A stretch of 64,000 bases of DNA from Gigantopelta aegis. Lineage: Eukaryota > Mollusca > Gastropoda > Neomphalida > Peltospiridae. The stretch is taken from NCBI RefSeq assembly GCF_016097555.1, contig NC_054702.1:111982171-112046170 (forward strand). Direction: 5' to 3'. The translations under genes were made by a program, and so were the position numbers. Of this stretch, positions 10,795 through 44,914 are shown piece by piece. Numbering within the stretch: the first letter of the stretch is position 1; each line of letters starts with the position of its first letter. Below the pieces are notes generated by a model. That model was not told the DNA's origin. It worked only from the letters and a program-made list of their open reading frames with translations, and made no database searches.

Positions 10795-11354
10795 GTTTCA
10801 GCAGTACTGGTTGTATTCTTGGCTACAGGCCAAAGACACTCTGTAATCCCTGCTTTACGAAACCCAGTCACTACGTGATGAGGATTGTCAACGACATGCT
10901 GAAACGCTTTCATGAACCATATTGGGCAGAGGGGTTTTACCACGCTGGTATTCATGTTGACCTAGACAGCATTTGCCGCAGTTCCCTGATGTATTTGGTC
11001 TTTTACCTTGGCTCCATACCAATTAATGAACTCTTCTTTCATTACTCCCTTCATGGGTTTATTGATAGAAAGATCCATTGGCTGTAATTTATCAGTGCAG
11101 TTTGCAGGAACTTGAACTGGTAAAATTTCATTCCTGTCCAAATGTTCCTTACAAGTGTCAGTCCATTGGGCCCTGAAAACATCAAACAAGCAGACCATTT
11201 TTTGGTCTGCCTGTAGGCCAAGGTCCTTGGTCACCGTTTTCCTGTACGGAATCAAGACATTATCAAAGTAGGAAATCATTGACGCCTCGTTGGACCAGTG
11301 TTTAGCGTTATGAGCAATATGCAAGTCCTCAGGCCACTTCACTCCCTCGGGCAC
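10795..11354 (-). pseudogene. pogo-like transposase C-terminal half
   Basis: The minus-strand reading starts PEGVKWPEDLHIAHN and continues through HWSNEASMISYF, CLFDVFRAQ (second catalytic Asp), VPANCTDKLQPMDLSINK (third catalytic position) and, after a single in-frame TAG near 10965, NTSVVKPLCPIWFMKAF and VTGFRKAGI. These are hallmarks of the DDE_1 superfamily in invertebrate pogo/jerky-type elements. It belongs to the outer element 7726-11860. Confidence 0.85.
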
Positions 11355-11862
11355 AGTATTTTGGTGAATTTGTGTACGCTACATCGCAGAAAAAGTGGTG
11401 CACAGGGGCGCGAAGGTGGAATTTACTCTTACATGCAGATGATTTTTAGTAAATGGTTTACGGTACTAAACAAACAAAAAAAGAATAAATGTGTGTATTT
11501 TTAATAGAACTGGTTACAATTTACTTGAAACCCTTTTCAAAACACAAGTAACATCACCCATATACAATTTATTTATAATGTGAATAATGTCACGCTACAG
11601 TGTACTAAAGTAAGTGTCAAAGATGCACTCTTGTTATTGTCTATGACGCAACGCCATTGTTTTGCGAGACCTACTTTCTAAGTAGCCATGTCTTAACGTA
11701 ACACAATGTTCTGTATAAACTAATGTGTGATGTACCCTTAATGTCTTTTGCATCCATGCAAATTATGCTAAATCAGAAATAAGTTAGCGCGTAATTAAAT
11801 TCGCGGTACTAGCAATGTGTTTGCGGTATATTTTATTCGCGAAAATATTTGCGTATATGGTA

Positions 11863-18168: not shown

Positions 18169-18287
18169 GTAACGTGTTTGACTAGGTTTTACATTGTATA
18201 CTGTACCTTTAATTACAAACATTATTTATTATTATTATTTCAATATACAATTAAGATTATACCTTGAATGACATGTCCATATAACAT

Positions 18288-19065
18288 GTGTCACACAGTT
18301 GGAAATGATGGTCCCTTTAATATATAAATGTGTCAAACAGTGGGAGATGATGGTCCCTTCAATGTATAAATGTGTTACACAGTGGGAGATAATGGTCCAT
18401 TCAATATATAAATGTGTCACACAGTGGGAGATGATGGCCCCTTCAATGTATAAATGTGTTACACAGTGGGAGATGATGGTCCATTCAATATATAAATGTG
18501 TCACACAGTTGGAGATGATGGTCCCTTCAATATATAAATGTGTTACACAGTGGAGGAGGATGGTCAATCTAATATATAAATGTGTTACACAGTGGGAGAT
18601 GATGGTCCCTTCAATATATAAATGTGTCACACAGCGGGAGATGATGGTCAATTCAATGTATAAATGTGTTACACAGTGGGAGATGATGGCCCCTTCAATG
18701 TATAAATATGTTACACAGTGGGAGATGATAGGCCCTTCAATGTATAAATGTGTTACACAGTGGGAAATGATGGTCCCTTCAATATATAAATGNNNNNNNN
18801 NNNNNNNNNNNNNNNNNNNNNNNNNNNNNNNNNNNNNNNNNNNNNNNNNNNNNNNNNNNNNNNNNNNNNNNNNNNNNNNNNNNNNNNNNNNNNNNNNNNN
18901 NNNNNNNNNNNNNNNNNNNNNNNNNNNNNNNNNNNNNNNNNNNNNNNNNNNNNNNNNNNNNNNNNNNNNNNNNNNNNNNNNNNNNNNNNNNNTAAATGTG
19001 TTACACAGTGGGAAATGATGGTCCATTCAAGGTATAAATGTGTTACACAGTGGGAGATGATGGCT
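18288..19065. repeat. 42-bp minisatellite interrupted by an assembly gap
   Basis: Period 42 bp. The unit includes 'cacacagtgggagatgatgg' followed by 'aatatataaatgtgt'. Being divisible by three it is open on both strands, which yields long false ORFs. The array continues on both sides of the N-run, so its true length is unknown. Confidence 0.92.
18793..18992. other. Assembly gap (200 N)
   Basis: Exactly 200 N inside the 42-bp array. A round size suggests a placeholder, so the missing length cannot be read from it. Confidence 0.98.
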
Positions 19066-26447: not shown

Positions 26448-29400
26448 TTTAATTAATCAATTAATTTATTTATTTTAACTTCAGGCTTGCCCATGACATT
26501 AGTCCCGATATTCTTGGTGATGATGATGACGAAGATGACTACAAGATCAAGGAGTTTATCACTGAAACCTACAGCTGCTGGTATTCCAAGGAAAGTGTTC
26601 CCGAGGATTCCGTCATCAAGGACCGGGGCAGTGAGAAGGACAGCATTGCTGAGAGGAATGCTAAAAACCTGTATCTCAAGGACCAGGCGCCGAGCTACAC
26701 GGATGTTGTGTGTAGTAAGATCGAGGATTATGAGGCAGACGTCAAGTCCGAGAAGCAGACGGCGAAGTGTGCTCAAAACGAGGACTACTCAGACATCAGC
26801 GACCTCGACTCAAACAGGTCCTCACCAGATCAAGTGGTGAGTATCACTGGGACGTTTCATTAAGGCTCACTCTTTTGTCCAGATCTGTTGGTGAGTATCA
26901 CTGGGACATTTCATTAAGGCTCTCTCTTTTGTCCAGATCAGGTGGTGAGTATCACTGGGACGTTTCATTAAGGCTCACTCTTTTGTCCAGATCTGTTGGT
27001 GAGTATCACTGGGACATTTCATTAAGGCTCTCTCTTTTGTCCAGATCTGTTGGGGAGTATCACTGGGACGTTTCATTAAGGCTCTCTCTTTTGTCCAGAT
27101 CTGTTGGGGAGTATCACTGGGACGTTTCATTAAGGCTCACTCTTTTGTCCAGATCTGTTGGTGAGTATCACTGGGACGTTTCATTAAGGCTCACTCTTTT
27201 GTCTAGATCTGTTGGTGAGTATCACTGGGATGTTTCATTAAGGCTCACTCTTTTGTCCAGATCTGGTGGTGAGTATCACTGGGACGTTTCATTAAGGCTC
27301 ACTCTTTTGTCCAGATCTGTTGGTGAGTATCACTGGGACGTTTCATTAAGGCTCACTCTTTTGTCCAGATCTGTTGGTGAGTATCACTGGGATGTTTCAT
27401 TAAGGTTCTCTCTTTTGTCTTGTCCAAAACATTTGATTTATTGTAAATCATTTTAATGTAAAAACATAAAGCTATATATTCTGGAGTAATCAATAGTCGA
27501 ACACATAAGAACAAACATTAAAGTAAGCATGTGTAACTGAAAAGAAATAAAACAAATATTATTTATCCAACTAGTTGGTCCTTTGCTATATATATGTAAT
27601 ACACTATTTGTTATTAATATTTACTGCCGAATTCATTTGCCAAAGCAAGTTTTTAAATAGAACCCACTTTATTCTTGTAACGTGTTTGGCAATTTTCATC
27701 TCTGAACCATTGTATTTTGTATCAGAGAAAACAGACTTTTCATTGATGAAAAAACACAAATGATGTAAATCACTTCTGATCACTTCACAAGCCATATTCT
27801 GTTAACGGACCAGAAAATGTTGATAAATGTAACATCACTGGTTTGCTCGTGCTCACGAGCTTTAGAACAAATATGACATGTGCGATTATTGATTATTACT
27901 TTATGATGCACAGCACTGGGACAAGGAATAGTTACTACATTACAAGTTCGAATCATTGGTTTAGCTGTAAAATTATTAGCAATAAAACTGAACGACAAAG
28001 CCATAATATGTGATCAGGGCCCTATCTCTACACAATGCAGAGTCGAATGGGCATTTGGCAAAATAGTGGAATATTTAATGAATCTCTATCTAGTGCCTCG
28101 TCTATAGGAGGACAGCCACCCCAGAGGAGATCCTTCCTTCCTGCTGCTCCCAGACTAGTTTACTAAATCAGAACTAGCACCTGACAGAGCTCACTGGAAT
28201 AAGTACAGTTGTGATGACATGCACTCATGAATCACTGTCATAACAGTGATGATATCAGGTGTTCATGAAATGTGAGCATATCCTGCCCCACTTGTGTTAC
28301 CCGTCATGAGTACCACGACCACAAGTTCCAAATGGAACAAAAAGGAGACCCTTATATAAAAAGGCCCTATTTTCAGTGGAGAAAACGTCATTTTCAGTGG
28401 AGAAAACATCATTTTCAGTGGAGAAAACATGATTTTCAGTGATTAAACTCTAAGACGAGGATATAGTTTCCTTATTCAGAACACCCCTCCAAGTCTTTGT
28501 TACTTTTGTACAGACTTGCTCTGAAGAAAATGTATTTCATGTAAAACAAAATTGAATATAGATAAAACAATTTATATAATGATTTATGTATGCATTCATC
28601 TTGTACTTCACTGTTTGCCAAACTCACCAATCTGTCCCTTGTTAACTCCACCAGGCTTGCTCACCCATCCATCTGACCCATCTACCTAATTATTCACCCA
28701 TCCAACCATCCACCCACCCAAATCTACTTTACCAACCCATCCATCCATCCACTGAACCAACTGTCCATCCATTCATCCATCCATCCACCGAAAGAACTGG
28801 TCTTCCATCCATTGAACCAACTGTCCATTCATCCATCCATCCATCCACTGAACCAACCGTCAATCTATCAATTCATTGACCCAACTGTCCTTCCTTCCAT
28901 CCATCCATCCACCCATCCATCCATCAAAGAACCATCCGTCCATCCATCAATTCATTGAACCAACTGTTCATTCATCCTCCCATTTACTTGACCATCCATT
29001 CATATGTCCATCAATTCATCCATCTATCCTACCATCCATATCATCCATCCATCTGACCGGCCTCAGTGGCGTCGTGGTTAGGCCATCGGTCTACAGGCTG
29101 GTAGGTACTGGGTTCGGATCCCAGTCGAGGCATGGGATTTTTAATCCAGATACTGACTCCAAACCCTGAGTGAGTGCTCCGCATGGCTCAATGGGTAGGT
29201 GTAAACCACTTGCACCGACCAGTGATCCATAACTGGTTCAACAAAGGCCATGGTTTGTGCTATCCTGCCTGTGGGAAGCGCAAATAAAAGATCCCTTGCC
29301 ACCTGTTATAAAAGAGTAGCCTATGTGGCGACAGCGGGTTTCCTGTAAAAATTTGTGTGGTCCTTAACAATATGTCTGACACCATATAACCGTAAATAAA

Positions 29401-32400
29401 ATGTGTTGAGTGCGTCGTTAAATAAAACATTTCTTTCTTTCTTTCCATCCATCTGTCCACTTGATCATCCATCCATCCATCCATCCATCATCTGTCTGTC
29501 CATGTGTCCTTTCTCCCCATCCATCTATCTACACATTTAGCTATCCATTCCTCCATCCATCCATCCAGTTTCAACATGTATATGTGTGTATAAATAAATG
29601 TTTGACAGATATGAAATAAGAGATAATGATAGTATTGATAATCAATACAAGTTGCTAAAAATATAAATAAATTATTCTATGTTTACTGTGAAAAAAAAGC
29701 TTGCTTCGACACTGTTTAATATTCCACAATTTGCATCAGTTAAATTTACCTTTGCTTCTCATCTTAAGAGATTAGTTTAGACAAGGAATATAAAAGGAAA
29801 CTAAATGAAAGGTCTTGTCTACATTGCATATAAATTTACATGTGTGATATCCCGCTAGTAAAGATGACCGTATTGTGGTGCAGTAATAGGCCAGCCTTTC
29901 TCAAACAGTCTTTAATGTGCGGGTCTAAACACACTCAGGGGGTTTAGCCGAAGACAATAAATGGGAAGAAATGGTGTAAGAAAAATCAATATTGATCAGA
30001 CGTGGTGAATGCCTCTCTCTGAACACAATCAGATGGATGTGTGATAAAGGCGGCCATTAAGTATAAAGATAGATTTGTGCCAATAATAAAGTAAAGTTTG
30101 TTTTAATTAACAACGCCACTAGAGCACATTGATTTTTTATCTTATCATCGGCTATTGGACGTCAAACATATGGCATTCTGACACTGGTTTTTAGAGGAAA
30201 CCCGCTGTTGCTGCATAGGCTACTCTTTTACAACAGGCAGCAAGGGATCTTTTATTTGCGCTTCCCACAGGCAGGATAGCACAAACCATGGCCTTTGTTG
30301 AACCAGTTATGGATCACTGGTCAGTGCAAGTGGTTTACACCTACCCATTGAGCCTTGCAGAGCACTCACTCAGGGTTTGGAGTCAGTATCTGGATTAAAA
30401 ATCCCATGCCTCGACTGGGATCTGAACCCAGTACCTACCAGCCTGTAGACCAATGGCCTAACCACGACGCCACCGAGGCCGGTACCAATAATAAAATACA
30501 CATTGTAATGGTGTGTCCACATTGATACAGCACAGTGCTGTGTACCTAAGTACCAAAGACAAATTTATATAAATCTTATAAATTAATATTCAGTTTTTAC
30601 TATGAGGAACGGTGGCGTGGTACTTATTTAAAATCATTATAATGATGCAATAAACATTGTATTTTCATTAATCATAAGTAAAAGCTCATTACGGACATCG
30701 TGTGAAATATACCGGAATTTAGCCCGAGTACTCTGACTGTAAGAGAGCTAGACGGACATTTGGACATAAACACGCTCTCTTTACAGTCAGAGACCAACCT
30801 ATGTCTTTTTTTGGCAATTCCTGACTACCAAACGGTAGGCAACGAGTCCCGCTCTAATACCACAACAATCCTATGTTTGACGTCAAATACCTTTACATCA
30901 ATCATTTTCGAGTTAAGTGATACAAAAAAATCCACATATTAATCACTAATACACATACTACAGAAAGAAACCTGACAGCACCCACATTCAGCTACGCTTC
31001 GTGACACTCCGTCGCAACAATTGCAAAGCTCGGCGATCTATTTCGAGACGTAGACCACGTGATCGCGCACTGGGCGATTCCGCCTTGTGCAGCAGTTACA
31101 GGGGCCGTCTCATATCAAGCGAAGTTACAACATGGAAGAGTTGGCTAATGCCGTTTTGGATGAATTTGGATTTCATTACGTCATTAAACTAAAACAATTA
31201 CACATTATTGATTCCATTTTGAATTTGAAGGATACATTTGGGGTGTTATCGACAGGATACGGCAAAAGTATGTGCTACGTACTGCCTCCTCTTATGAGAC
31301 GACCCCTGTAACTGCTGCACAAGGCGGAATCGCCCAGTCTCGAAATAGATCGCGAGCTTTGTAATTGTTGCAACGGAGTGTCACGAAGCGTAGCTGAATG
31401 TGGGTGCTGTCGGGTTTCTTTCTGTAGTATGTGTATTAGTGATTAATATGTGGATTTTTTTGTATCACTTAACTCGAAAATGATTGATGTAAAGGTATTT
31501 GACGTCAAACATAGGATTGTTGTGGTATTAGAGCGGGACTCGTTGCCTACCGTTTGGTAGTCAGGAATTGCCAAAAAAAAGACATAGGCTGGTCTCTGAC
31601 TGTAATGAGAGCGTGTTTATGTCCAAATGTCCGTCTAGCTCTCTTACAGTCAGAGTACTCGGGCTAAGTTGCATTATGTAATCCAGTGGGAAGACATTTT
31701 ACAATTCAGAGGTGTTATTAGAACTAAATTGGATAGTTGTTTTTTTTATGCAACACTGAATGTCAATACACAGCCTGTTGAATTAGCGGCAACACGCTTC
31801 GTAGCCATTACGATGACAACAAACATTATAATAACACGTCATTTTATAAACTCCATGTGGGTTTTTTAACAATATAAATAGGCTATCCCACAATTCTCAC
31901 TTCGGCAAAGGTTAAACAGTCGGGACAATTCGGCCTGTTACATTCTCAGAAACCGAAAGTAGTCGACATTTTCCGAATGAGAAAAAAAAGGTAGAGTTAC
32001 TTCCCTTATGTTATTTTGACAAGAGAGGATCGATTTTTTTTTTATGCTTACAAAAATGTCATTTAACAGGAGAAACTGTCTCCCGCACAGGTAAAAGGAG
32101 ATTTGATCAAATACCGGGAGACTCCAGCGGAATCCGGGAGGGTTAACAGGTCTGACTGATACCAGTGTGTCTCCAGTCACATTCCCATTGGTGGGCCCAT
32201 TGGGCTATTTCTAGTTCCAGCCAGTGCACCACGACTGGTATATCAAAGGCCGTGGTATGTACTAACCTGTCTATGGGATGGTGCATATAAAAGATCCCTT
32301 GCTGCTAATCGGAAAGAGTAGTCCATGAAGTGGCGACAGCGGGTTTCCTCTCTCAATATATGTGTGGTCCTTAACCATATGTCTGATGCCATATAACCGT

Positions 32401-35400
32401 AAATAAAATGTGTTGAGTGCATCGTTAAATAAAACATGTCTTTCTTTGTTTCCAATCACACTCAATGTACACTCTAACACACAAGATAAATACATTGATA
32501 CTAGGGTAATAACAGTTATACAAAAACAACACTTTAAACATTTGTATACATTAATTCTAAAGTGTGTTCACAATCACAGTCATACAAAAACAATGCTCTT
32601 AATATTTATATAAATTATACACTAAGGTCTCACTGCACAGTTCACTTCCAGGTGAGAGTCCACTGTAGTTCCTAATTGTGACACGTTACGGTTCACATAT
32701 TCACTTCTAGGAATTGGGGAAGAATTAAAACAATATGTATATTTAATATTAAGCTTTTTGGCTGTATTTTGCCCATGTTATTTTGTAATATTGTACATTG
32801 ACTTTTTGAGACATGGGTGTATAGTGCAAGAGACAGCCAGAGTGAATCGGTTTAATGAACCACCTGTTTAGACCGGTACTACAGCCAGATGCTGTTATAT
32901 AGCAAACAACTAAGACGGAAATGTTCTCAATTTTGGAGAGAAAATAAATCCTTATATAATGTATGTTCGTAATGGTGTATGTTGTTAGTGCCAACAGACA
33001 TCCCACAGACAAGACAGCACATACCACAGCCTTTGATATACCAGTCATGGTGCACTGGCTGAAACAAGAAATAGACCAATGGGCCCACTGATGGGGATCG
33101 ATTCTAGCACTCATTAAGCGAGCACTTTACCACTGGGCTAAGTCCCATCCCTATTTTACTGTTAACCAATCCACAATCCATATATTACACAAAATAAACT
33201 AGTATTAATAAATATACATGATTTTAAATTATTTAAACAAATTGTTATTTCTGATTTTGGTCATTGATTGAACATTTAAAAAATAATTTCGTTTACCATA
33301 GAACTCATGTATACAGAGTATCTTGTTATGAAAATAATATACAGTAAAATAGATTCTACATTATTGTTTGTAACACTTAACATTATTTATATTTCAGATA
33401 TCCTGTACAAAGCAATCTAGTAAACCTGGTTGCCAAGCAACATACAGTGCCAAAATTCATGAAAGTGGTGGTAACCATGCTCGGAGACCGAGAAAACTTC
33501 CTGACATTCCCATAAATCATGAAGGTAAGTTGATATCACAGGGAGAAAAAATAGGTTTTTAAAAAATAGATATTTTTTATAAGTTAATTTTTTTGTTATT
33601 TATTTAATAAATATATTTATCAATATAATAATACATGTTTGGAATCTAGTTAATATTAGTATTGACTTTTGCATTTTGATTTATATATGTATTGCTTGGC
33701 AGTTAACAATATTACATATATTATACTACAGTCCATTCTGTGTGTTTAGTTAGTGTGGCGTGCCCAGCATTACATATATTATACTACAGTCCATTCTGTG
33801 TGTTTAGTTAGTGTGGCGTGCCCAGCATGGTGGTGAACACGAAGTCTCTGATATATTATACTACAGTCCGTTCTGTGTATTTAGTTAGTGTGGCGCGCCC
33901 AACATGGTGGTGAACACGAAGTCTCTGATATATTATACTACAGTCCGTTCTGTGTGTTTAGTTAGTGTGGTGCGCCCAGCATGGTGGTGAACACGAAGTC
34001 TCTGATATATTATACTACAGTCCGTTCTGTGTGTTTAGTTAGCGTGGCGCGCCCAGCATGGTGTTGAACACGAAGTCTCTGATATATTATACTACAGTCC
34101 GTTCTGTTTGTTTAGTTAGCGTGGCGTGCCCAGCATGGTGGTGAACACGAAGTCTCTGATATATTATACTACAGTCCGTTCTGTGTATTTAGTTAGCATG
34201 GCGCGCCCAGCATGGTGGTGAACACGAAGTCTCTGATATATTATACTACAGTCCCTTCTGTGTATTTAGTTAGCGTGGCGCGCCCAGCATGGTGGTGAAC
34301 ACGAAGTCTCTGATATATTATACTACAGTCCGTTCTGTGTATTTAGTTAGCGTGGCGCGACCAGCATGGTGGTGAACACGGAAGTCTCTGATATATTATA
34401 CTACAGTCCGTTCTGTGTATTTAGTTAGCGTGTCGCGTCCAGCATGGTGGTGAGCACGAAGTCTCTGATATATTACACTACAGTCCGTTCTGTGTATTTA
34501 GTTAGTGTGGCGCGCCCAGCATGGTGGTGAACACGAAGTCTCTGATATATTATACTACAGTCCGTTCTGTTTGTTTAGTTAGCGTGGCGCGCCCAGCATG
34601 GTGGTGAACACGAAGTCTGATATATTATACTACAGTCCGTTCTGTTTGTTTAGTTAGCGTGGCGCGCCCAGCATGGTGGTGAACACGAAGTCTCTGATAT
34701 ATTATACTACCGTCCTTTCTGTTTGTTTAGTTAGCATGGCGTGGCCCAACATGGTGGTGAACACGAAGTTTCTGATATATTATACTACAGTCCGTTCTGT
34801 GTATTTAGTTAGCGTGGCGCGCCCAGCATGGTGGTGAACACGAAGTCTCTGATATATTATACTACAGTCCGTTCTGTGTATTTAGTTAGCGTGGCGCGCC
34901 CAGCATGGTGGTGAACACGAAGTCTCTGATATATTATACTACAGTCCGTTCTGTGTGTTTAGTTAGCGTGGCGCGCCCAGCATGGTGGTGAACACGAAGT
35001 CTCTGATATATTATACTACAGTCCTTTCTGTTTGTTTAGTTAGCATGGCATGGCCCAACATGGTGGTGAACACGAAGTCTCTGATATATTATACTACAGT
35101 CCGTTCTGTGTATTTAGTTAGTGTGGCGCGCCCAGCATGGTGGTGAACACGAAGTCTCTGATATATTATACTACAGTCCGTTCTGTTTGTTTAGTTAGTG
35201 TGGCGCGCCCAGCATGGTGGTGAACACGAAGTCTCTGATATATTATACTACAGTCCATTCTGTGTGTTTAGTTAGTGTGGCGCGCCCAGCATGGTGGTGA
35301 ACACGAAGTCTCTGATATATTATACTACAGTCCGTTCTGTGTGTTTAGTTAGCGTGGCGCGCCCAGCATGGTGGTGAACACGAAGTCTCTGATATATTAT

Positions 35401-38400
35401 ACTACAGTCCTTTCTGTTTGTTTAGTTAGCATGGCGTGGCCCAACATGGTGGTGAACACGAAGTCTCTGATATATTATACTACAGTCCGTTCTGTGTATT
35501 TAGTTAGCGTGGCGCACCCAGCATGGTGGTGAACACGAAGTCTCTGATATATTATACTACAGTCCGTTCTGTGTGTTTAGTTAGTGTGGTGCGCCCAGCA
35601 TGGTAGTGAACACGAAGTCTCTGATATATTATACTACAGTCCGTTCTGTGTGTTTAGTTAGCGTGGCGCGGCCCAGCATGGTGGTGAACACAACGTCTCT
35701 GATATATTATACTACAGTCCATTCTGTGTGTTTAGTTAACGTGGCGCGGCCCAGCATGGTGGTGAACACAAAGTCTCTGATATATTATATTACAGTCCAT
35801 TCTGTGTGTTTAGTTAGCGTGGCGCGGCCCAGCATGGTGGTGAACACGAAGTCTCTGTTTGAGGAGCTGCAGGAGGCGCGGGACCGACAGGTGGAGGAGG
35901 GGGGCGGGGCTGACGACGTGTTCCTCACCAACTCGCTCGGCACATACACCGGCATCCGCAAACGCACCACCGACATCCTGGAGCGCAGCATCAACTTCCA
36001 TTCAGTCCCGCGCAACAGCACGACCTTCACCAACTGTGACAACCCGTTCATCACGGAGGATTCGTCAACACGCAGACACAGTTCGCGGCACTCGTCATCA
36101 GGCTCTGATGGATGTGGTACGTGTCATTTTCACCTCATTGCCACCTTTCCTTTCTTTCATTTTAATTCAATCTCTTTTTTTTCAGTTTGGCAACTCTTTC
36201 TATTTTTTTAAAGAGTTCACTTCACAGTGACCAATGTGTTAAATTAATTTGTTTATACATCCCACCACTTCCAGTATAATGATGGGCCTGTTTTTATCTA
36301 GAAATAAACCTATCATTCATACCTAGAGACAGACAGGTGACTGTCACAAAATGACATTATTTAGCAGTTGTATTTCTCAGGATAGGATTTCCCCATCTTC
36401 AGCACTCTTCACTGGTTTCACTGTATATTCAACAACATTTTAATCTTAGTTTTGTTTACACTTATTATATACTACCGTACCAGTATACAACAAATTAGTC
36501 ATTTTGAATGCCATTAATTTTTGTGTTTATTGAATTATCAATCTTTTAATAGGCACATTTAGACAGTCTATTTACTGAAGTAATTTGATCATGTTAAAAT
36601 ATATGATTGAAAATATTCACATTTCTTTTGTGGTTCATTATATTTATTAAACCAAACAGTCATTGTTACTACACTTATCTTGACTGTCTCCACATTTAAT
36701 AGTGACAATCACTAAATTAGTGATTAGCATTGCAGTCTCCTTGTTCTACTTTAGGTTCCAAGAAATCATCTACCTCCAGTTTATGCTATGTGGCATCATC
36801 ACTGCGTACAGAGATGAATGTCACACACCGCGGCATGCACCACTTCATACCACGGCATCCTGATGAAATGATCATAGAGATCGGTGATCCAATCCACGTG
36901 ATCACAGAACATGATGACTTGTGGTGTGAAGGTCAGTGTAGAGGTCATACTAATGATGTGTGGTGTGAAGGTCAGTGTAGAGGTCATACTAATGATGTGT
37001 GGTGTAAAGGTCAGTGTACGGTTGTACTAATCATGTGTGGTATGAAGGTCAGTGTGAAGGTCATAGTAATCATGTGTGATGTGAAGGTCAATGTAGAGGT
37101 CATACTAATGTGGTGTGAAGGTCAGTGTAGAGGTCATACTAATGTGTGTGGTGTGAAGGTCAGTGTAGAGGTCATACTAATGCTGTGTGGTGTGAAAGTC
37201 AGTGTAGAGGTCATATTAATGATGTGTGGTGTGAAGGTCAGTGTAGAATTCATACTAATAGTGTGTGGTGTGAAGGTCAGTGTAAGGTCATACTAATGGT
37301 GTGTGGTGTGAAGGTCATACTAATGATGTGCAGTGTGAATGTCATTGTAGAGGTCATATAAATAATGTTTGGTGTGAAGATCAGTGTAAAAGTCATATTA
37401 ATGATGTGTGGTGTGAAGGTCAGTGTAAACGTCATACTAATGATATGTGGTGTGAAGGTCAGTGTAGAATTCATACTAATAGTGTGTGGTGTGAAGGTCA
37501 GTGTAAGGTCATACTAATGGTGTGTGGTGTGAAGGTCATACTAATGATGTGCAGTGTGAATGTCATTGTAGAGGTCATATAAATAATGTTTGGTGTGAAG
37601 ATCAGTGTAATACAAATGACTTGTGGTATGACAGATTTGTTAATTAATGCTTACAAGTATGGGTTTTTTCATAGATAATACTTTAATTAATTGGTACAAG
37701 TTTTTTTGTTGTGTGTGTGTGTGTTCAGAAAATTGTTCTTTTTGGTATATTTGTTGTTTATTAAATGCTTGGTTTCTTTCAATTGTCGGTGGATGACATT
37801 TTGATGTTCATATAAAAATGTGTGGCATTTTGTGATAATGAAAAGAAATGACTAATATTATATTATAAGTTTTCTTTCTTTGACAGGTGTGAATCTTAAA
37901 ACCGGTCAGAAAGGAATCTTCCCTGCAATGTATGCCATAGATCTTCACTTCTTAGAAGAAGAATCTGGTACGTAATTCACAAACACAATCTTTCCAGTTA
38001 AGTCAAAATTATTACTTTAACAAAGGTGTCTTTTATCATGAAATCACTGGACAGACATCAGAAAATGGATTGGTTGATTTTGGGTGAAAACATTGTGTTA
38101 TTGTTGTGATTGTATTAGTAGATAAAATGTTTTTTTTTTAACTTTCACCTCATTTGCTTGTTAATCCTGTGAGGATTGAGTGGCATATTTGTGCATTTTA
38201 GAATTATATCCAATCATTAAATATATAAAATAAAATGCATTTCTCAGAAAAACAATTGTGTAAAAAATTTGAATCTCAAGGATGTTTTTGTGGACCAAAC
38301 TTACAAAATCAAATCTTATGAAAGCGAGACAAGGAAAAACTGTGGGACACTTAAGAAATGACTTATATGTAGCATGAAGTGTGTACTCCCATATTAAAAT

Positions 38401-41400
38401 GTATTAGGCCACACCAAAATATGCTGTCCCAGATCACAATGTACAATGCCCTATCAATATGGGTAATCCTATATCTTAAACCAAAATGATTAAGCCTGGA
38501 TTTAAAGGCCAAATTTATGAAAGGTAATTTGTTACTTAACTAAAAAGCTGTGTATATTTAATAATTTATCATAAATGGTGTTTATTCTTGGGTACATGCC
38601 ATATTTTATCTGTTTAAAATTCATAAATGTGGCCCAAAATATGGAACCCTACAAAACAACATGTTGTTTAATATCAAAATATGTAGACCCAATAAAAAAA
38701 AAATGTAGATGCCCTTTACCATAATATGTCATCCAATATTAAACTACATAAACTACATGAAGATTTATTGTCATATGCCTAAATATGGAGCAATGCATTT
38801 TTACACTATTAAGGTCTCAATGGGAGAGTATTTTTGGTTTCATTATATTTTTGTGCAGTTATTGTATAAGTAATGTTTTATTTCAGATGAAGAAGATTGT
38901 CAAAAGTTCAATATCAAGTTCATGGGTTCTGTTGAAGTGAACAGTCACAAGGGTGATGATGTTCTATGTCAGGCCATTAATAAGGTGATCATTGTCATAT
39001 TGCTTGTACCGAGTATTACTTTATAACGTGTGTTCTATATCAAGTCACAAGGGTGATGATGTTCTATGTCAGGCCATTAATAAGGTGATCATTGTCTTAT
39101 TGCTTGTGTCGAGTATTACTTTATAACGTGTGTTCTATATCAAGTCACAAGGGTGATGATGTTCTATGTCAGGCCATTAATAAGGTGATCATTGTCATAT
39201 TGCTTGTACCGAGTATTACTTTATAACGTGTGTTCTATATCGAGTCACAAGGGTGATGATGTTCTATGTCAGGCCATTAATAAGGTGATCATTGTCTTAT
39301 TGCTTGTACCGAGTATTACTTTATAACGTGTGTTCTATATCGAGTCACAAGGGTGATGATGTTCTATGTCAGGCCATTAATAAGGTGATCATTGTCTTAT
39401 TGCTTGTACCGAGTATTACTTTATAACGTGTGTTCTATATCGAGTCACAAGGGTGATGATGTTCTATGTCAGGCCATTAATAAGGTGATCATTGTCTTAT
39501 TGCTTGTACCGAGTATTACTTTATAACGTGTGTTCTATATCGAGTCACAAGGGTGATGATGTTCTATGTCAGGCCATTAATAAGGTGATCATTGTCTTAT
39601 TGCTTGTACCGAGTATTACTTTATAACGTGTGTTCTATATCGAGTCACAAGGGTGATGATGTTCTATGTCAGGCCATTAATAAGGTGATCATTGTCTTAT
39701 TGCTTGTACCGAGTATTACTTTATAACGTGTGTTCTATATCGAGTCACAAGGGTGATGATGTTCTATGTCGGGCCATTAATAAGGTGATCATTGTCTTAT
39801 TGCTTGTACCGAGTATTACTTTATAACGTGTGTTCTATATCGAGTCACAAGGGTGATGATGTTCTATGTCGGGCCATTAATAAGGTGATCATTGTCTTAT
39901 TGCTTGTACCGAGTATTACTTTATAACGTGTGTTCTATATCGAGTCACAAGGGTGATGATGTTCTATGTCGGGCCATTAATAAGGTGACATTGTCTTATT
40001 GCTTGTACCGAGTATTACTTTATAACGTGTGTTCTATATCGAGTCACAAGGGTGATGATGTTCTATGTCGGGCCATTAATAAGGTGATCATTGTCATATT
40101 GCTTGTACCGAGTATTACTTTATAACGTGTGTTCTATATCGAGTCACAAGGGTGATGATGTTCTATGTCGGGCCATTAATAAGGTGATCATTGTCATATT
40201 GCTTGTACCGAGTATTACTTTATAACGTGTGTTCTATATCGAGTCACAAGGGTGATGATGTTCTATGTCGGGCCATTAATAAGGTGATCATTGTCATATT
40301 GCTTGTACCGAGTATTACTTTATAACGTGTGTTCTATATCGAGTCACAAGGGTGATGATGTTCTATGTCGGGCCATTAATAAGGTGATCATTGTCATATT
40401 GCTTGTACTGAGTATTACTTTATAACGTGTGTTCTATATCGAGTCACAAGGGTAATGATGTTCTATGTCAGGCCATTAATAAGGTGATCATTGTCATATT
40501 GCTTGTACCGAGTATTACTTTATAACGCGTGTTCTATATCGAGTCACAAGGGTGATGATGTTCTATGTCAGGCCATTAATAAGATGATCATTGTCTTATT
40601 ACTTGTATTACTTTATAGTGTGTGGCACCCTTTAACTCAAACCCTGGGAGATTTTGAAGATCCATTTAAGATAAAACTGACATGATTTTACTGTCACCTG
40701 AATAAAGATAGGCCGCCTACTAATAACAGATGATGATTTAATGATTTAGAAAAAGCAAAGGCAAAGTAGATATCACAGTTGTACAAACTTAGCAAAGTTT
40801 AGGGGCGTAAAGTGACTATTTTGCCTGAACTGCCCCCAAGTTTGAACCCTACAGATATGACAGATAGTGTAAACATCCAGGAGGGGTTAAAAATTAAAAA
40901 TTAATACATTGCACATGTAATTAACGTGTTTCAGGTTGCATTGACTCGTCGCACCACAATCAACGATCTTCCGCCACCAATGTGTACCATAGAGGTCAGT
41001 CAGTACGGGATCCGCATGGTCGAACACAGCAAGGATGGGGTGAGTCTTTTAGAGAGAGGAAGTGGGTAAACATGGTAGAACACAGCAAGGAGGGGTGAGT
41101 CTTTTAAAGAGACAGGAAGTGGGTAAACATGGTAGAACACAGCAAGGATGGGGTGAGTCTTTTAGAGAGAGGAAGTGGGTAAACATGGTAGAACACAGCA
41201 AGGATGGGGTGAGTCTTTTAGAGAGAGGAAGTGGGTAAACATGGTAGAACACAGCAAGGATGGGGTGAGTCTTTTAGTGAGAGGAAGTGGGTAAACATGG
41301 TCGAACACAGCAAGGATGGGGTGAGTCTTTTAAAGAGACAGGAAGTGGGTAAACATGGTAGAACACAGCAAGGATGGGGTGAGTCTTTTAGAGAGAGGAA

Positions 41401-44400
41401 GTGGGTAAACATGGTAGAACACAGCAAGGATGGGGTGAGTCTTTTAGAGAGAGGAAGTGGGTAAACATGGTAGAACACAGCAAGGATGGGGTGAGTCTTT
41501 TAGTGAGAGGAAGTGGGTAAACATGGTCGAACACAGCAAGGATGGGGTGAGTCTTTTAAAGAGACAGGAAGTGGGTAAACATGGTAGAACACAGCAAGGA
41601 GGGGGTGAGTCTTTTAGAGAGAGGAAGTGGGTAAACATGGTAGAACACAGCAAGGATGGGGTGAGTCTTTTAGAGAGAGGAAGTGGGTAAACATGGTAGA
41701 ACACAGCAAGGAGGGGGTGAGTCTTTTAGAGAGAGGAAGTGGGTAAACATGGTAGAACACAGCAAGGATGGGGTGAGTCTTTTAGTGAGAGGAAGTGGGT
41801 AAACATGGTCGAACACAGCAAGGATGGGGTGAGTCTTTTATAGAGAGGAAGTGGGTAAACATGGTCGAACACAGCAAGGATGGGGTGAGTCTTTTAGTGA
41901 GAGGAAGTGGGTAAACATGGTCGAACACAGCAAGGATGGGGTGAGTCTTTTAAAGAGACAGGAAGTGGGTAAACATGGTAGAACACAGCAAGGATGGGGT
42001 GAGTCTTTTAGTGAGAGGAAGTGGGTAAACATGGTCGAACACAGCAAGGATGGGGTGAGTCTTTTAAAGAGACAGGAAGTGGGTAAACATGGTAGAACAC
42101 AGCAAGGAGGGGGTGAGTCTTTTAGAGAGAGGAAGTGGGTAAACATGGTCGAACACAGCAGGGGGGGGTGAATCTTTTAGTGGGAGGAAGTGGGTAAACA
42201 TGGTTGAACACAGCAAGGAGGGGGTGAGTCTTTTAGAGAGAGGAAGTGGGTAAACATGGTTGAACACAGCAAGGATGGGGTGAGTCTTTTAGTGAGAGAG
42301 GAAGTGGGTAAACATGGTTGAACACAGCAAGAATGGGGTGAGTCTTTTAGAGAGAGGAAGTGGGTAAACATGGTTGAACACAGCAAGGAGGGGTGAGTGT
42401 TTTAGTGAGAGAGGAAGTGGGTAAACATGGTTGAACACAGCAAGGAGGGTTGAGTCTTTTAGTGAGAGGAAGTGGGTAAACAGAGTTAAACACAGCAAGG
42501 AGGGGGTGAGTCTTTTAGAGACAGGAAGTGGGTAAACATGGTAGAACACAGCAGGGGGGGGGTGAATCTTTTAGTGAGAGAGGAAGTGGGTAAACATGGT
42601 TGAACACAGCAGGGGGGTGAATCTTTTAGTGAGAGAGGAAGTGGGTAAACAGGGTTGAACACATCAGGGGGGTGAATCTTTTAGAGAGGAAGTGGGTAAA
42701 CATGGTTGAACACAGCAGTGGGGGGTGAGTCTTTTAGTGAGAGAGGAAGTGGGTAAACAGGGTTGAACACAGCAAGGAGGGGCGAGTCTTTTAGAGAGAG
42801 GAAGTTGGTAAACATAGTTGAACACAGCAGGGGGGTGTGAGTCTTTTAGTGAGAGAGGAAGTGGGTAAACATTGTTGAACACAGCATGGATGGGGTGAGT
42901 CGTTTAGAGAGAGAGGAAGTGGGTAAACACGGTGGATCACAGCAAGAAGGGGGAGTCTTTTAGAGAGGAAGTGGGTAAACACATTTGAACACAAGGATGG
43001 GGAGAGTCTTTTAGAGAGGAAGTGGGTAAACACATTTGAACACAACAAGGATGGGGGGAGTCTTTTAGAAAGAGAGGAAGTGGGTAAACACATTTGACCA
43101 CAACAAGGATGGGGTGAATCTTTTAGAAAGAGAGGAAGTGGGTAAACACATTTGAACACAAGGATGGGTGAGTCTTTTAGAGAGAGGAAGTGGATCACAG
43201 CAAGATCACGGTAATGTTTGTTTGATAGAGAGGATGTGGCTAATATAGTTGAAATATTGATAGGAATGATTTGGAAGGGTAGGGAAAGTTTTTTCACAAA
43301 GAGGGCAAGCACGTAGGACTTTGTTGGGAAAAGAAATAATTGAATGACATGTATTTTTAAATATAATAATACTTGACCTGTGTGGTTTGTTTTTCAGTAT
43401 GCATGTGACGCCCCCTCTCACTTCTTCGCACTGAAGCATATTTCATACTGTGGAACCCACCCCAGGAATGACAAGTATGTAATTATTAATTTGTTTTCGT
43501 GGTGTACAAATTATAGGAAGGACTTTAAAACTAAAACTACTGATGTGATTATTCTATATTGTTTTGTTCCAATACATAGTTAAATTCTATAGGTAACCAA
43601 AACTTAACATGCTAATTTATGATTTGTATAAAATAGGTATGACCTGATAACAAAGTATCAAAAATATTTATAATCCTGTATGATAAATATTACACTTCTT
43701 GTAATGTATCCAACTTGCCACACAATGAGTGTTAAATGAATGAAAAGTTTTCTTGTTTTTCAGATATTTTGCATTCATAACAAAACACCCCAAAGACTAC
43801 CGATTTGCCTGCCATGTGTTTCTGGGTGAGCGAACGACACGTGCAGTCAATGATGCCCTCAGGTAAACCAGTCTATGGGAAAATTCACCAGATACTGTGT
43901 TATTATGCCCTACTTCTGTTCTTTCTCTATAAACATAGGGTGGTGGGGGGTCATGGCATGGCAGAAGCAAATAGACATTGGGGGTTTGGGGGGTATGCTC
44001 CCCCCTTAAAATTTTGAAACCCGGATGTCCTGAAATGCAATTTCCTGCATTCTACAAGTAAAATTCATCTGTGCCGTAAGATTTACTATCAATAATATTT
44101 ATTTATTTATTGGAAGGGGGGGGGGGGGGGGGGGACTGGAATCACAAGAATGTTACATCCTTCTTTGAAGTGTCTGGTTTTAATGTGCTTGGCTTTCGTT
44201 GGTCATATTATAAGCTATTTTCTGTTTAGTCTTTAAGACTGGTCTCCATTAACACATTGATCTTAAGGTTGGGTGGCACTGTGTTGACATATCAGTACCA
44301 GTTGCCAGTCAACAGAAAGAAAGAAAGAAAGAAATGTTTTATTTAACGACGCACTCAACACATTTTTATTTACGGTTATATGGCGTCAGACATGTGGTTA

Positions 44401-44914
44401 AGGACCACACAGATTTTGAGAGGAAACCCGCTGTCACCACATAGGCTACTCTTTTACGACAGGCAGCAAGGGATCTTTTATTTGCACTTCCCACAGGCAG
44501 GATAGCACAAACCATGGCCTTTGTTGAACCAGTTATGGATCACTGGTCGGTGCAAGTGGTTTACACCTACCCATTGAGCCTTGCGGAGCACTCACTCAGG
44601 GTTTGGAGTTGGTATCTGGATTAAAAATCCCATGCCTCGACTAGGATCCGAACCCAGTACCTACCAGCCTGTAAACCGATGGCCTGCCACGACGCCACCG
44701 AGGCCGGTCCAGTCAACAGGTGCGAGGATACTACACTAAATCCAAAATTAGCTAAGTGTTGGGTCTCTTTCTGCTTTTTGTGCGTGACCTTTTTGACCTG
44801 TTTCACAGTAATTTTATATTAATGTATTTTGTTTTTCACAGAGTGTCATTCAAGCGGTTCTACCAGGAGTACATGGCCTTCACTCACCCCACGGAAGACA
44901 TCTACATAGAATGA
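20375..44914 (+). CDS. MAPK8IP1: JNK-interacting protein 1 / APLIP1 scaffold, 11 coding exons
   Basis: Exons: 20375-20418, 26485-26836, 33398-33524, 35814-36116, 36755-36931, 37887-37967, 38887-38984, 40935-41039, 43398-43474, 43764-43862, 44842-44914. All are GT/AG, the phases fit, and the sum is 1,536 nt (511 aa). JIP1 assembles the MLK-MKK7-JNK module and links cargo to kinesin-1. Landmarks: TTFRLAHDIS then an acidic run (about 13-30), as in vertebrate JIP1 (FRLTHDIS); RRPRKLPDIPI (161-171), a possible JNK D-site; an SH3 domain (about 296-355: HHFIPRHPDEMIIEIGDPI, DLWCEG, GIFPAMYAIDL); a PTB domain (about 362-505: FNIKFMGSVEV, RRTTINDLPPP, HFFALKHISYCG, FAFITKHPKDYRFACHVF); and the tail PTEDIYIE, the kinesin-light-chain binding end. 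The start ATG has an in-frame TAA upstream (20345). Exon 1 has a weaker GTATTG donor. Exons 2, 4, 5, 7 and 8 each border a minisatellite that copies their splice site. Confidence 0.95.
20921..21171. mobile_element. Short MITE in JIP1 intron 1
   Basis: Ends CAGGGTTTCTGTCAGA and, reversed, CAGTGTTTCTGCCAGA. The same family as 15636-15893 by its ends. I could not confirm a target duplication. It contains a short telomere-like 'aaccctaaccctaa', which looks incidental. Confidence 0.55.
21599..21985. repeat. 77-bp minisatellite, 5 copies, in JIP1 intron 1
   Basis: Unit with 'ttgtactgacgagtgttcat' and 'cagtgttgtgggggttcatt', period 77 bp, almost identical copies. Not next to an exon. Confidence 0.93.
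22380..22445. repeat. (GAAT)n-like microsatellite
   Basis: Imperfect gaat/gaac tetranucleotide run in JIP1 intron 1. Confidence 0.8.
23286..23427. mobile_element. Palindromic MITE in JIP1 intron 1
   Basis: Arms of about 40 nt (23288-23327 and 23387-23426) pair with few mismatches. They share 'atcggctttatcctgt' and its complement. A second inner pairing ('gaatgggaaat' with 'atttcccattc') makes the whole unit nearly self-complementary. Directly after it, 23429-23602 is bounded by TTTATCCTGCAG and its near complement, suggesting a further short element. Confidence 0.7.
24735..25100. repeat. 113-bp tandem repeat in JIP1 intron 1
   Basis: Blocks containing 'tgccacacttgttttacgca' repeat at about 24839, 24952 and 25065 (113 bp apart), with a diverged first copy 95 bp earlier (about 24744). 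Confidence 0.85.
25350..25455. repeat. Dispersed repeat, copy 1
   Basis: Shares about 100 bp with 28030-28130, including 'atttggcaaaatagtgga' and 'ctagtgcctcgtctatagga'. Family unknown. Both copies lie in JIP1 introns (1 and 2) in the same orientation. Confidence 0.7.
26837..27425 (+). repeat. 54-bp array of duplicated 5' splice sites after JIP1 exon 2
   Basis: It starts at the exon 2 donor (GT at 26837). Period 54 bp, about 11 units, each carrying an exon-edge-like 'ccagatct/ccagatcagg' followed by 'gtggtgagtatcactggg'. The unit at about 26935 keeps the closest copy of the exon end. Most units retain GTGAGT; two read GGGAGT (near 27053 and 27107) and have lost the donor. In the JIP1 frame, use of a downstream donor reaches TAA at 26861 after eight extra codons. 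Confidence 0.92.
28030..28130. repeat. Dispersed repeat, copy 2
   Basis: Second copy of the block at 25350-25455, in JIP1 intron 2. Just upstream, 27604-28004 has open minus-strand stretches I cannot assign. Confidence 0.7.
28371..28440. repeat. 21-bp tandem repeat, about 3-4 copies
   Basis: Unit 'attttcagtggagaaaac' plus 2-3 variable bases, in JIP1 intron 2. Confidence 0.8.
28640..29570. repeat. (CCAT)n microsatellite split by a SINE
   Basis: Imperfect ccat/ccatcc repeats run from about 28640 to 29055 and resume from 29445 to about 29570. The SINE at 29056-29444 interrupts them. Confidence 0.88.
29056..29444 (+). mobile_element. Full-length tRNA-headed SINE
   Basis: The head contains an A-box-like 'gtggcgtcgtggttaggcca' and a B-box-like GGTTCGGATCC (about 29111-29121). 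The body contains 'aaataaaagatcccttgc', and the tail ends in (TTTC)n. The 11-mer CCATCCATCTG flanks both sides (29045-29055 and 29445-29455), although inside a CCAT repeat this duplication is weak evidence. Other copies: 30091-30484 and 44316-44708 (reverse), and a partial at 32180-32450. Confidence 0.88.
30091..30484 (-). mobile_element. Mosaic SINE (head of one family, tail of another)
   Basis: On the minus strand the head and body match 29056-29444. The 3' part instead matches the tail of the 48600-48890 family ('gacgtccaatagccgatgat', 'caatgtgctctagtgg'). An identical 11-mer CCAATAATAAA flanks the whole (30080-30090 and 30485-30495), so the chimera inserted as one unit. Confidence 0.85.
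30722..31664. mobile_element. Fold-back DNA element with about 0.38-kb inverted arms
   Basis: The ends GCCCGAGTACTCTGACTG and its complement are flanked by TA on both sides (30720-30721, 31665-31666). The arms run about 30722-31113 and 31294-31664 and are nearly identical. The left arm carries a 21-bp insertion (near 31055-31075). The roughly 180-bp centre holds a RecQ-like helicase fragment. It has no transposase, so it is non-autonomous. High arm identity suggests recent spread or arm correction. Superfamily unassigned; a TA target fits Tc1/mariner-like or other TA-specific elements. Confidence 0.9.
31132..31311 (+). CDS. RecQ-like helicase N-terminal fragment inside the fold-back element
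   Basis: A 59-aa open frame from ATG (31132) to TAA (31309-31311). It shows the RecQ motif 0 pattern (FGFHYVIKLKQLHIIDSIL) followed by motif I with a Walker A (GVLSTGYGKSMCYVLPPL), where GYGKS is the nucleotide-binding loop. It stops right after motif I, where the right arm begins (the last codons, MRRPL, come from the arm), so motifs II-VI are missing and it cannot be a working helicase. It is either a capture from a host RecQ gene or a remnant of a larger parent element that carried a helicase. Confidence 0.8.
   Translation: MEELANAVLDEFGFHYVIKLKQLHIIDSILNLKDTFGVLSTGYGKSMCYVLPPLMRRPL
32180..32450 (+). mobile_element. SINE, head missing
   Basis: Matches the body and tail of the SINE family ('gcatataaaagatccctt', 'gtgtggtccttaaccatatg', 'gcatcgttaaataaaacat'). 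The promoter head is absent. It lies 26 nt from the end of the hAT copy. Confidence 0.8.
33000..33153 (-). mobile_element. SINE head portion
   Basis: On the minus strand it begins GGGATGGGACTTAGCCCAGT (A-box-like), then a B-box-like 'atcgatcccc', then 'tttcttgtttcagccagtgc'. The tail is missing. The same family as 1-88. Confidence 0.75.
33722..35857 (+). repeat. 77/78-bp array of duplicated 3' splice sites before JIP1 exon 4
   Basis: About 27-28 units. Each has a pyrimidine-rich stretch and acceptor (ccgttctgtgtgtttag) followed by the first 43 nt of exon 4 (from TTAGCGTGG through 'aacacgaagtctctg'), then the spacer 'atatattatactacag'. The last unit runs on into the real exon (35814). Most units are 77 bp; the two next to the exon (starting 35658 and 35736) are 78 bp, so acceptors there would extend the protein in frame by 26 or 52 aa (SMVVNT.SLIYY.TVHSVCL type). 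Confidence 0.93.
36117..36754. other. JIP1 intron 4
   Basis: AT-rich single-copy sequence. I see nothing beyond the splice sites. Confidence 0.5.
36921..37615 (+). repeat. 39-bp array of duplicated 5' splice sites after JIP1 exon 5
   Basis: It starts at the exon 5 end (native donor GT at 36932). Units repeat 'tgtggtgtgaaggtcagtg' every 39 bp, copying the last exon codons (WCE) plus the GTCAGT donor. At least the first two downstream copies (GT at about 36971 and 37010) are in frame and open, adding 13-aa repeats GQCRGHTNDVWCE. A larger block of about 150 bp near 37245-37390 recurs at about 37465-37610, showing higher-order duplication. Confidence 0.9.
37968..38886. other. JIP1 intron 6
   Basis: No coding or repeat structure that I can name; AT-rich. 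Confidence 0.5.
38943..40590 (+). repeat. 100-bp array of duplicated 5' splice sites after JIP1 exon 7
   Basis: The last 42 nt of exon 7 (AGTCACAAGGGTGATGATGT onward to AATAAG) plus the GTGATC donor are repeated about 16 times at 100-bp spacing (donors at 38985, 39085, 39185 and on). One unit is 99 bp (near 39988) and the last has AAGATGATC. Copies differ by only a few bases, so the array is young or homogenised. Reading past the native donor meets TAA within about 14 codons. Confidence 0.93.
41016..43205 (+). repeat. About 56-bp array of duplicated 5' splice sites after JIP1 exon 8
   Basis: About 38 units of 55-58 bp, increasingly degenerate rightward. Each carries the exon 8 end (catggtcgaacacagcaagg, then atggg) and the donor GTGAGTC, followed by 'ttttagagagaggaagtggg'. 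The native donor is at 41040. In frame, readthrough meets TAA ten codons later. Variants aaggaggg/aaggatgg alternate in blocks, showing multi-unit duplications. Confidence 0.93.
44117..44135. repeat. Poly-G run
   Basis: About 18 consecutive G in JIP1 intron 10. A similar run lies near 61240-61260. A G-quadruplex is possible on the plus strand. Confidence 0.85.
44316..44708 (-). mobile_element. Full-length SINE in JIP1 intron 10
   Basis: Minus-strand copy of the 29056-29444 family with a (GAAA)n tail on the plus strand. It is flanked by the identical 11-mer CCAGTCAACAG (44305-44315 and 44709-44719), a clear target duplication, so a recent retroposition. The B-box reads GGTTCGGATCC on the minus strand. 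Confidence 0.92.

Follow-up and report, generated by a model that had tools for sequence, protein, structure and literature searches.

How do splice sites come to lie inside minisatellites, and how do such arrays persist? The question is raised by a 64,000-nucleotide stretch of the genome of the deep-sea vent snail Gigantopelta aegis (Neomphalida, Peltospiridae), referred to hereafter as the window (G000:C4:111982171-112046170 in the 1.149-Gb assembly), in which five minisatellites span exon edges of a single gene, the orthologue of JIP1: the donors of exons 2, 5, 7, and 8 and the acceptor of exon 4. With a probability of roughly 0.6, we take these to be minisatellites of the type called “mirage” in amphioxus, that is, tandem duplications with the 5′ splice site at their centre, which are tolerated since splicing retains the copy joined to the exon. 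The protein derived from the window is 100% identical over the query to the G. aegis RefSeq protein P0001 (LOC121371793), which carries SH3 and PTB domains, and spliced alignment of P0001 divides the gene into 11 exons and 10 GT-AG introns (Table 1).

The arrays were defined by Tandem Repeats Finder (TRF) and by unit-by-unit cutting at anchors, which confirmed both the five arrays and the unit lengths reported in an earlier reading of the DNA alone (the original prediction). That reading had the arrays begin exactly at the exon boundary; this is not so, as the exon edges lie inside the arrays, which cover between about 12 nt (exon 2, by eye) and 44 nt (exon 4) of exon. The edges at 35814, 36931, 38984, and 41039 are well within the arrays called by TRF, and that at 26836 is one base past its TRF array start. 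Each unit does hold part of the exon together with its splice site: the exon 2 unit consists of the last ~12–14 nt of the exon, GTGAGT and about 40 nt of intron, and the exon 4 unit of a TTTAG acceptor followed by the first 44 nt of the exon. The five units are unlike in length and have, by reading, no evident sequence in common, which fits their earlier description as five separate events. A dispersed-repeat origin, with a satellite inserted at exons, was checked with one of the five units: a 166-base query containing the 100-bp unit matched its own array only (17 of 17 matches, in a search that skips common words).

At all five edges the annotated junction uses the copy attached to the exon: at exons 2, 5, 7, and 8 this is the first of the donors, and at exon 4 it is the last of 28 acceptors. 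The remaining copies provide 96 decoys, close to the predicted figure of roughly 100: 27 TTTAG acceptors upstream of exon 4, and 69 of 77 decoy donors with GT intact (8/10 at exon 2, 14/15 aligned at exon 5, 14/14 aligned at exon 7, and 33/38 at exon 8). Only two of the 27 decoy acceptors, the pair closest to the exon, would leave the JIP1 frame open, because the last three units of this array are 78 bp long (most others being 77). None of the matched decoy donors of exons 2, 7, and 8 leaves the frame open, and at exon 5 six of 29 loosely matched sites do so (loose matching inflates the frame-test counts of 29 each at exons 5 and 7; the decoy totals come from the separate GT count). Since so few of these decoys would keep the frame open, the annotated protein needs the outer copy. 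We also considered translation of the repeats into protein, and rejected it on the finding that nearly all JIP1 decoys tested break the reading frame.

As JIP1 is the discovery locus, the independent test of these observations lies in other genes. Myosins were picked by a Pfam search of the genome that was blind to repeats (80 matches); some of the matches were taken with 200 kb of surrounding sequence, and shorter stretches were added afterwards. Exon edges were set with seven of the snail's own RefSeq myosins, which gave 82 complete introns plus a single extra donor in nine genes. Where no protein was at hand for a myosin gene, that gene was used solely in a second exon set, based on hidden Markov models (HMMs; see below). 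For the expectation, arrays were collapsed to one unit, because expansion copies are not independent targets, and dropped randomly on collapsed introns with overhang allowed at both ends, in 20,000 rounds; this permutation replaced a first expectation from a simple formula (3.6 edges for 53 myosin introns). Applied to the 10 introns of JIP1, it gives 0.33 donors and 0.33 acceptors, against four donors and one acceptor spanned (reached in 3 and 5,698 of 20,000 permutations, respectively), such that the earlier claim that chance placement is unlikely stands for the donors and is not supported for the acceptor.

The nine myosin genes hold 54 arrays, which span 11 of 83 donors where 1.61 were expected, an excess of about seven-fold that no permutation reached (0/20,000), and 2 of 82 acceptors, again with 1.61 expected (9,702/20,000). 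Among myosin arrays with a period of at least 20 and at least four copies, 9 of 22 span a donor (0.88 expected, 0/20,000) and one spans an acceptor. The 11 donor arrays are spread over seven of the nine genes (four in the myosin VIIa-like gene, two in Id, and one each in Ic, V, XVI, striated-muscle myosin, and the paralogue of the latter); the non-muscle and VI myosin genes have no donor-spanning array. Array starts are concentrated between −78 and +17 relative to the donor and thin out beyond, with four more myosin arrays beginning at most 15 nt after a donor and two ending at most 15 nt from an acceptor. Unit size at the donors examined ranges from 35 to 126 bp; the striated-muscle myosin array, for instance, has eight repeats of 23 nt of exon together with GGTGAGT. 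The bias towards donors came to notice in the initial 53 introns (eight donors, one acceptor), and it holds weakly in the introns added later (3/30 donors vs 1/29 acceptors). Exon-edge arrays are thus not special to JIP1, and they have a published precedent, the amphioxus mirages, that the original prediction did not mention.

Two further features of the striated-muscle myosin locus (L013) deserve description. Past its 80-bp donor array, at 8955-9035, the end of the exon recurs in diverged form and has a GGTGAGT of its own; this may be an alternative exon or a dead one. At 5239-6803 of the same locus, a 43-bp array of 36 copies stops 5 nt upstream of an acceptor and provides its polypyrimidine tract.

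The permutation bears directly on whether tolerance alone could account for the arrays. Minisatellites would then arise everywhere in a repeat-rich genome, some genes being array-rich, and those at edges would survive because one splice-site copy suffices. Tandem arrays do occupy about 17% of the sequence examined (17.5% of 200 kb; 17.4% of 337,565 nt), acceptors are spanned at the random rate, and the second exon set shows no excess, all as this account would have it. Tolerance cannot, however, raise donors above intron interiors, and it predicts no excess at edges, whereas both the full set of myosin arrays and the long arrays exceed expectation at donors; some seeding at the 5′ splice site, or preferential growth there, is therefore favored, and we regard tolerance alone as rather unlikely. 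The original prediction had left the choice between seeding and tolerance open for exon edges in general; since acceptors are not enriched, “exon edges” should read “mainly donors”.

A different means of producing a donor excess would be selection. U1 small nuclear ribonucleoprotein (snRNP) has a role in stopping premature polyadenylation (telescripting), and rows of 5′ splice sites might be kept as its landing sites, or for stronger exon definition. A donor-like strand bias in arrays free of any exon edge (described below) would agree with this proposal, as would the state of the decoys in 13 of the 15 donor arrays, where GT is intact in 201 of 219 copies, slightly above the 188.6 expected from mean identity. 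Against it, the GT columns are no different from other columns of the unit, most of the introns examined have no donor array, and donors bearing an array are not weaker than those without (median score 9.2 vs 7.7, p = 0.32). We accordingly hold selection to be improbable. The related idea that weak donors are rescued by their copies was tried and rejected, score, exon length, and GC content being alike in the 15 spanned and the 74 other donors. No purging of decoys was seen in those 13 arrays either, and as the decoy GT decays about like the rest of the unit, the decoys look like passengers. An individual case of decay is found in the myosin VIIa-like gene (locus L016, 4309-5500), where the five decoy donors nearest the exon and one farther away have lost their GT (GATGAGT), making six of 16, and ten keep it.

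The composition of certain units could also be taken to mean that they act in splicing, with an acceptor-like tract placed just before the donor to form recursive splice sites or tiny exons: the JIP1 exon 2 unit has TTTTGTCCAG with GTGAGT 8 nt on, and the 35-bp unit of myosin Id repeats TTTGTCAG AAAG GTAAGT. Such tracts are no hallmark of donor arrays, however, in that an acceptor-like score of at least 6 (sense) is found in 3 of 15 donor-spanning and 5 of 30 other arrays, and the annotated proteins skip every inner copy; we consider a splicing role of the units very improbable.

Least credible of all is that the arrays are artefacts of repeats collapsed or over-expanded during assembly. The published assembly was built from PacBio reads with Canu correction and wtdbg2 (PMC7895826), and undetermined bases (about 18790-19000) adjoin a 42-bp array at 18279-18792 in the window, which seems to resume beyond them (to 19015); copy numbers may therefore be wrong. 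The existence of the arrays is another matter: units within an array differ by patterned substitutions, on their exon side the arrays are tied to unique coding sequence, and 11 donors of other genes show the same anatomy.

Several results weigh against a general hot spot at donors. The second exon set, comprising conserved domains found by HMM with edges assigned by splice score, has arrays at 1 of 59 donors and 3 of 58 acceptors; removal of the loci re-used in the myosin test (ten donors and eleven acceptors, by hand count) leaves 0/49 and 2/47. The overlap of arrays with exon edges that the original prediction foresaw, assessed here in a sample, is hence borne out for myosin donors and not in this set. 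Within it, the chaperonin loci, which were meant as a replication, contribute 0 of 27 donors and 1 of 28 acceptors. The two donor sets differ (11/83 vs 0/49, Fisher p = 0.007), and so the rate varies between genes or exons. When all exons outside JIP1 are pooled, the excess at donors persists (11/132, Poisson p = 7.6e-5 at the per-edge rate of the permutation) and acceptors show none (4/129, p = 0.24), yet the direct comparison of donors with acceptors gives p = 0.11, reaching 0.035 only if the discovery gene is included. Four array ends lie at most 16 nt from an acceptor, so acceptors may not be free of effect. The permutation also treats genes alike, one gene gives four of the 11 donors, and the sample is dominated by one gene superfamily. 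Of the 82 introns, 14 were placed by means of a paralogue (nine, in the muscle myosin on C4) or through an abalone orthologue (five, in myosin V), and the others with the gene's own protein.

Genome-wide, CAGGTGAGT recurs at a spacing of 25–55 bases 899 + 800 (1,699) times, compared with 19 + 170 (189) for the reversed-motif control. This pair count is not normalized to the frequency of the single motif and the matches are clustered, the ~100 places listed coming from about five arrays, so it is supportive rather than decisive. Counting against it, the relaxed motif [AC]AGGT[AG]AGT is not commoner than its reverse outside arrays in 338 kb (10 vs 15); in the same sequence CAGGTGAGT occurs five times (reversed, one) and AAGGTAAGT three times (reversed, eight). 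All three of these local counts are too small to use.

What, then, would distinguish a donor from other intronic sequence? In 30 intronic arrays that touch no exon edge, a strong donor-like site is present in nine units in the sense direction and in two in the antisense direction, random intron windows having such sites at 12–13% on either strand. The numbers are small and some of these arrays may flank unannotated exons, but the asymmetry points to used donors and not to a DNA motif as such. We envisage that a short tandem duplication would arise around an exon–intron junction, in most cases with the 5′ splice site near its centre, and would then grow into the intron by unequal exchange or slippage. 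The donor excess would reflect faster duplication, or faster growth, at 5′ splice sites that are in use, with seeding perhaps occurring through transcription- or splicing-linked breaks. Persistence would be a matter of splicing. When a donor is duplicated, the copy joined to the exon stays at the head of the row, whereas duplication of an acceptor places decoys (up to 27 here) before the right one; donor copies may thus be better tolerated than copies of an acceptor, for which the correct site comes at the end.

Taken to its full extent, this scheme would place a mutational hot spot for tandem duplication at the 5′ splice sites that this snail uses, active where such a site is transcribed and hence linked to transcription or to splicing and not to the DNA motif, and thousands of introns may have been lengthened in this way; we offer this wider proposal tentatively, as possible but doubtful. 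Were the sampled rate outside JIP1 to hold genome-wide, splice donors would be preferred sites of tandem duplication from which introns grow at their 5′ ends, and many genes would carry dozens of decoy splice sites for the spliceosome to ignore. Two questions would then become testable in one animal: by what a splice site is marked as fragile, and how one copy is chosen among near-identical ones, for which exon 4 is a case in point.

Minisatellites of the mirage kind are known from amphioxus, where the original Adh paper reportedly appeared in Nucleic Acids Research (NAR) in 2002. As in amphioxus, the snail units span the exon–intron boundary (in all five JIP1 arrays, and at 11 donors and two acceptors of the myosin genes) and their copies carry splice signals, judging by the intact GT and decoy acceptors counted above. 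The amphioxus examples comprise Adh3 and the globin genes BflGb6 and BflGb9, with boundary-spanning units of 10–160 bp at donor or acceptor, many but not all copies of which have AG/GT; regular splicing is reported to be undisturbed and the boundary units to be excluded from homogenization (PMC3087553). They concern a few single cephalochordate genes, with six and three units in two globin haplotypes (PMC3087553), whereas here five arrays of up to 39 units occupy one mollusc gene and a sampled donor excess extends over nine further genes. We classify the JIP1 arrays as additional mirages; what is new is their scale and the excess across genes with its bias towards donors. An amphioxus huntingtin paper (PMC2206037), considered as a further parallel, proved not relevant.

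Minisatellites at exon–intron boundaries also occur in human segmental duplications, as internal tandem repeats that can alter splicing, producing new introns in recent paralogues with the repeat often retained in an alternative transcript (PMC2812944). JIP1 is unlike this case in that its decoys are nearly all frame-breaking where tested and its annotated protein is unchanged. Tandem duplication that copies splice signals is likewise a route to intron gain, of which there is reportedly a potato case. When AGGT is duplicated in this process (Rogers 1989, Gao and Lynch 2009, as cited in PMC3087553), an exon comes to be interrupted by a new intron, while the snail introns are lengthened at their ends, between exons joined in P0001. 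The G. aegis genome paper remarks that repeats make up a large share and that the assembly is based on PacBio reads, and “tandem repeat” is absent as a term from its main text (PMC7895826); we found no report of exon-edge arrays in molluscs in the open-licence literature with the terms used.

Table 1. Arrays and exons of the JIP1 gene (window coordinates; exons from spliced alignment of P0001)
Feature	Position	Strand	Remarks
Exon 2 donor array	26823..27419 (TRF: 26835-27419)	+	54 bp x 10.8; exon part added by eye
Exon 4 acceptor array	33711..35857 (TRF: 33774-35857)	+	77/78 bp x 27
Exon 5 donor array	36920-37610	+	39 bp x 18.5; 12 nt exon per unit; 221-bp higher-order period
Exon 7 donor array	38943-40607	+	100 bp x 16.7; 42 nt exon per unit
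Exon 8 donor array	41015-43193	+	56 bp x 38.9; 25 nt exon per unit; units degenerate towards 3′ end
Exon 1	end at 20418	+	carries start codon
Exon 2	26485..26836	+	
Exon 3	33398..33524	+	edges without array
Exon 4	35814..36116	+	annotated acceptor is the last copy
Exon 5	36755..36931	+	within SH3 domain region
Exon 6	37887..37967	+	edges without array
Exon 7	38887..38984	+	
Exon 8	40935..41039	+	within PTB domain region
Exons 9-11	43398-43474, 43764-43862, 44842-44914	+	stop in last; edges without arrays

The remainder of the window holds other features of note. Upstream of JIP1, on the minus strand, lies an exon of a mitochondrial ATP synthase b subunit gene (Pfam PF05405, 5597-5824), whose neighboring exons we would place, as a guess by eye, at about 3.2-6.4 kb. 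Transposase fragments are found at 4648-5100 (Tc3/helix-turn-helix (HTH) type), at 8974-10307 (Tc5 DNA-binding and DDE_1 pieces) and, on the minus strand, at 10965-11378 (DDE_1). Within JIP1, intron 2 contains at 30700-31680 an inverted repeat of nearly 1 kb end to end, the arms of which are near-identical by eye and give it the look of a foldback element, and copies of an element resembling a short interspersed element (SINE) are seen by eye in the introns in both orientations (29055-29440, 30100-30485, and 44320-44710).

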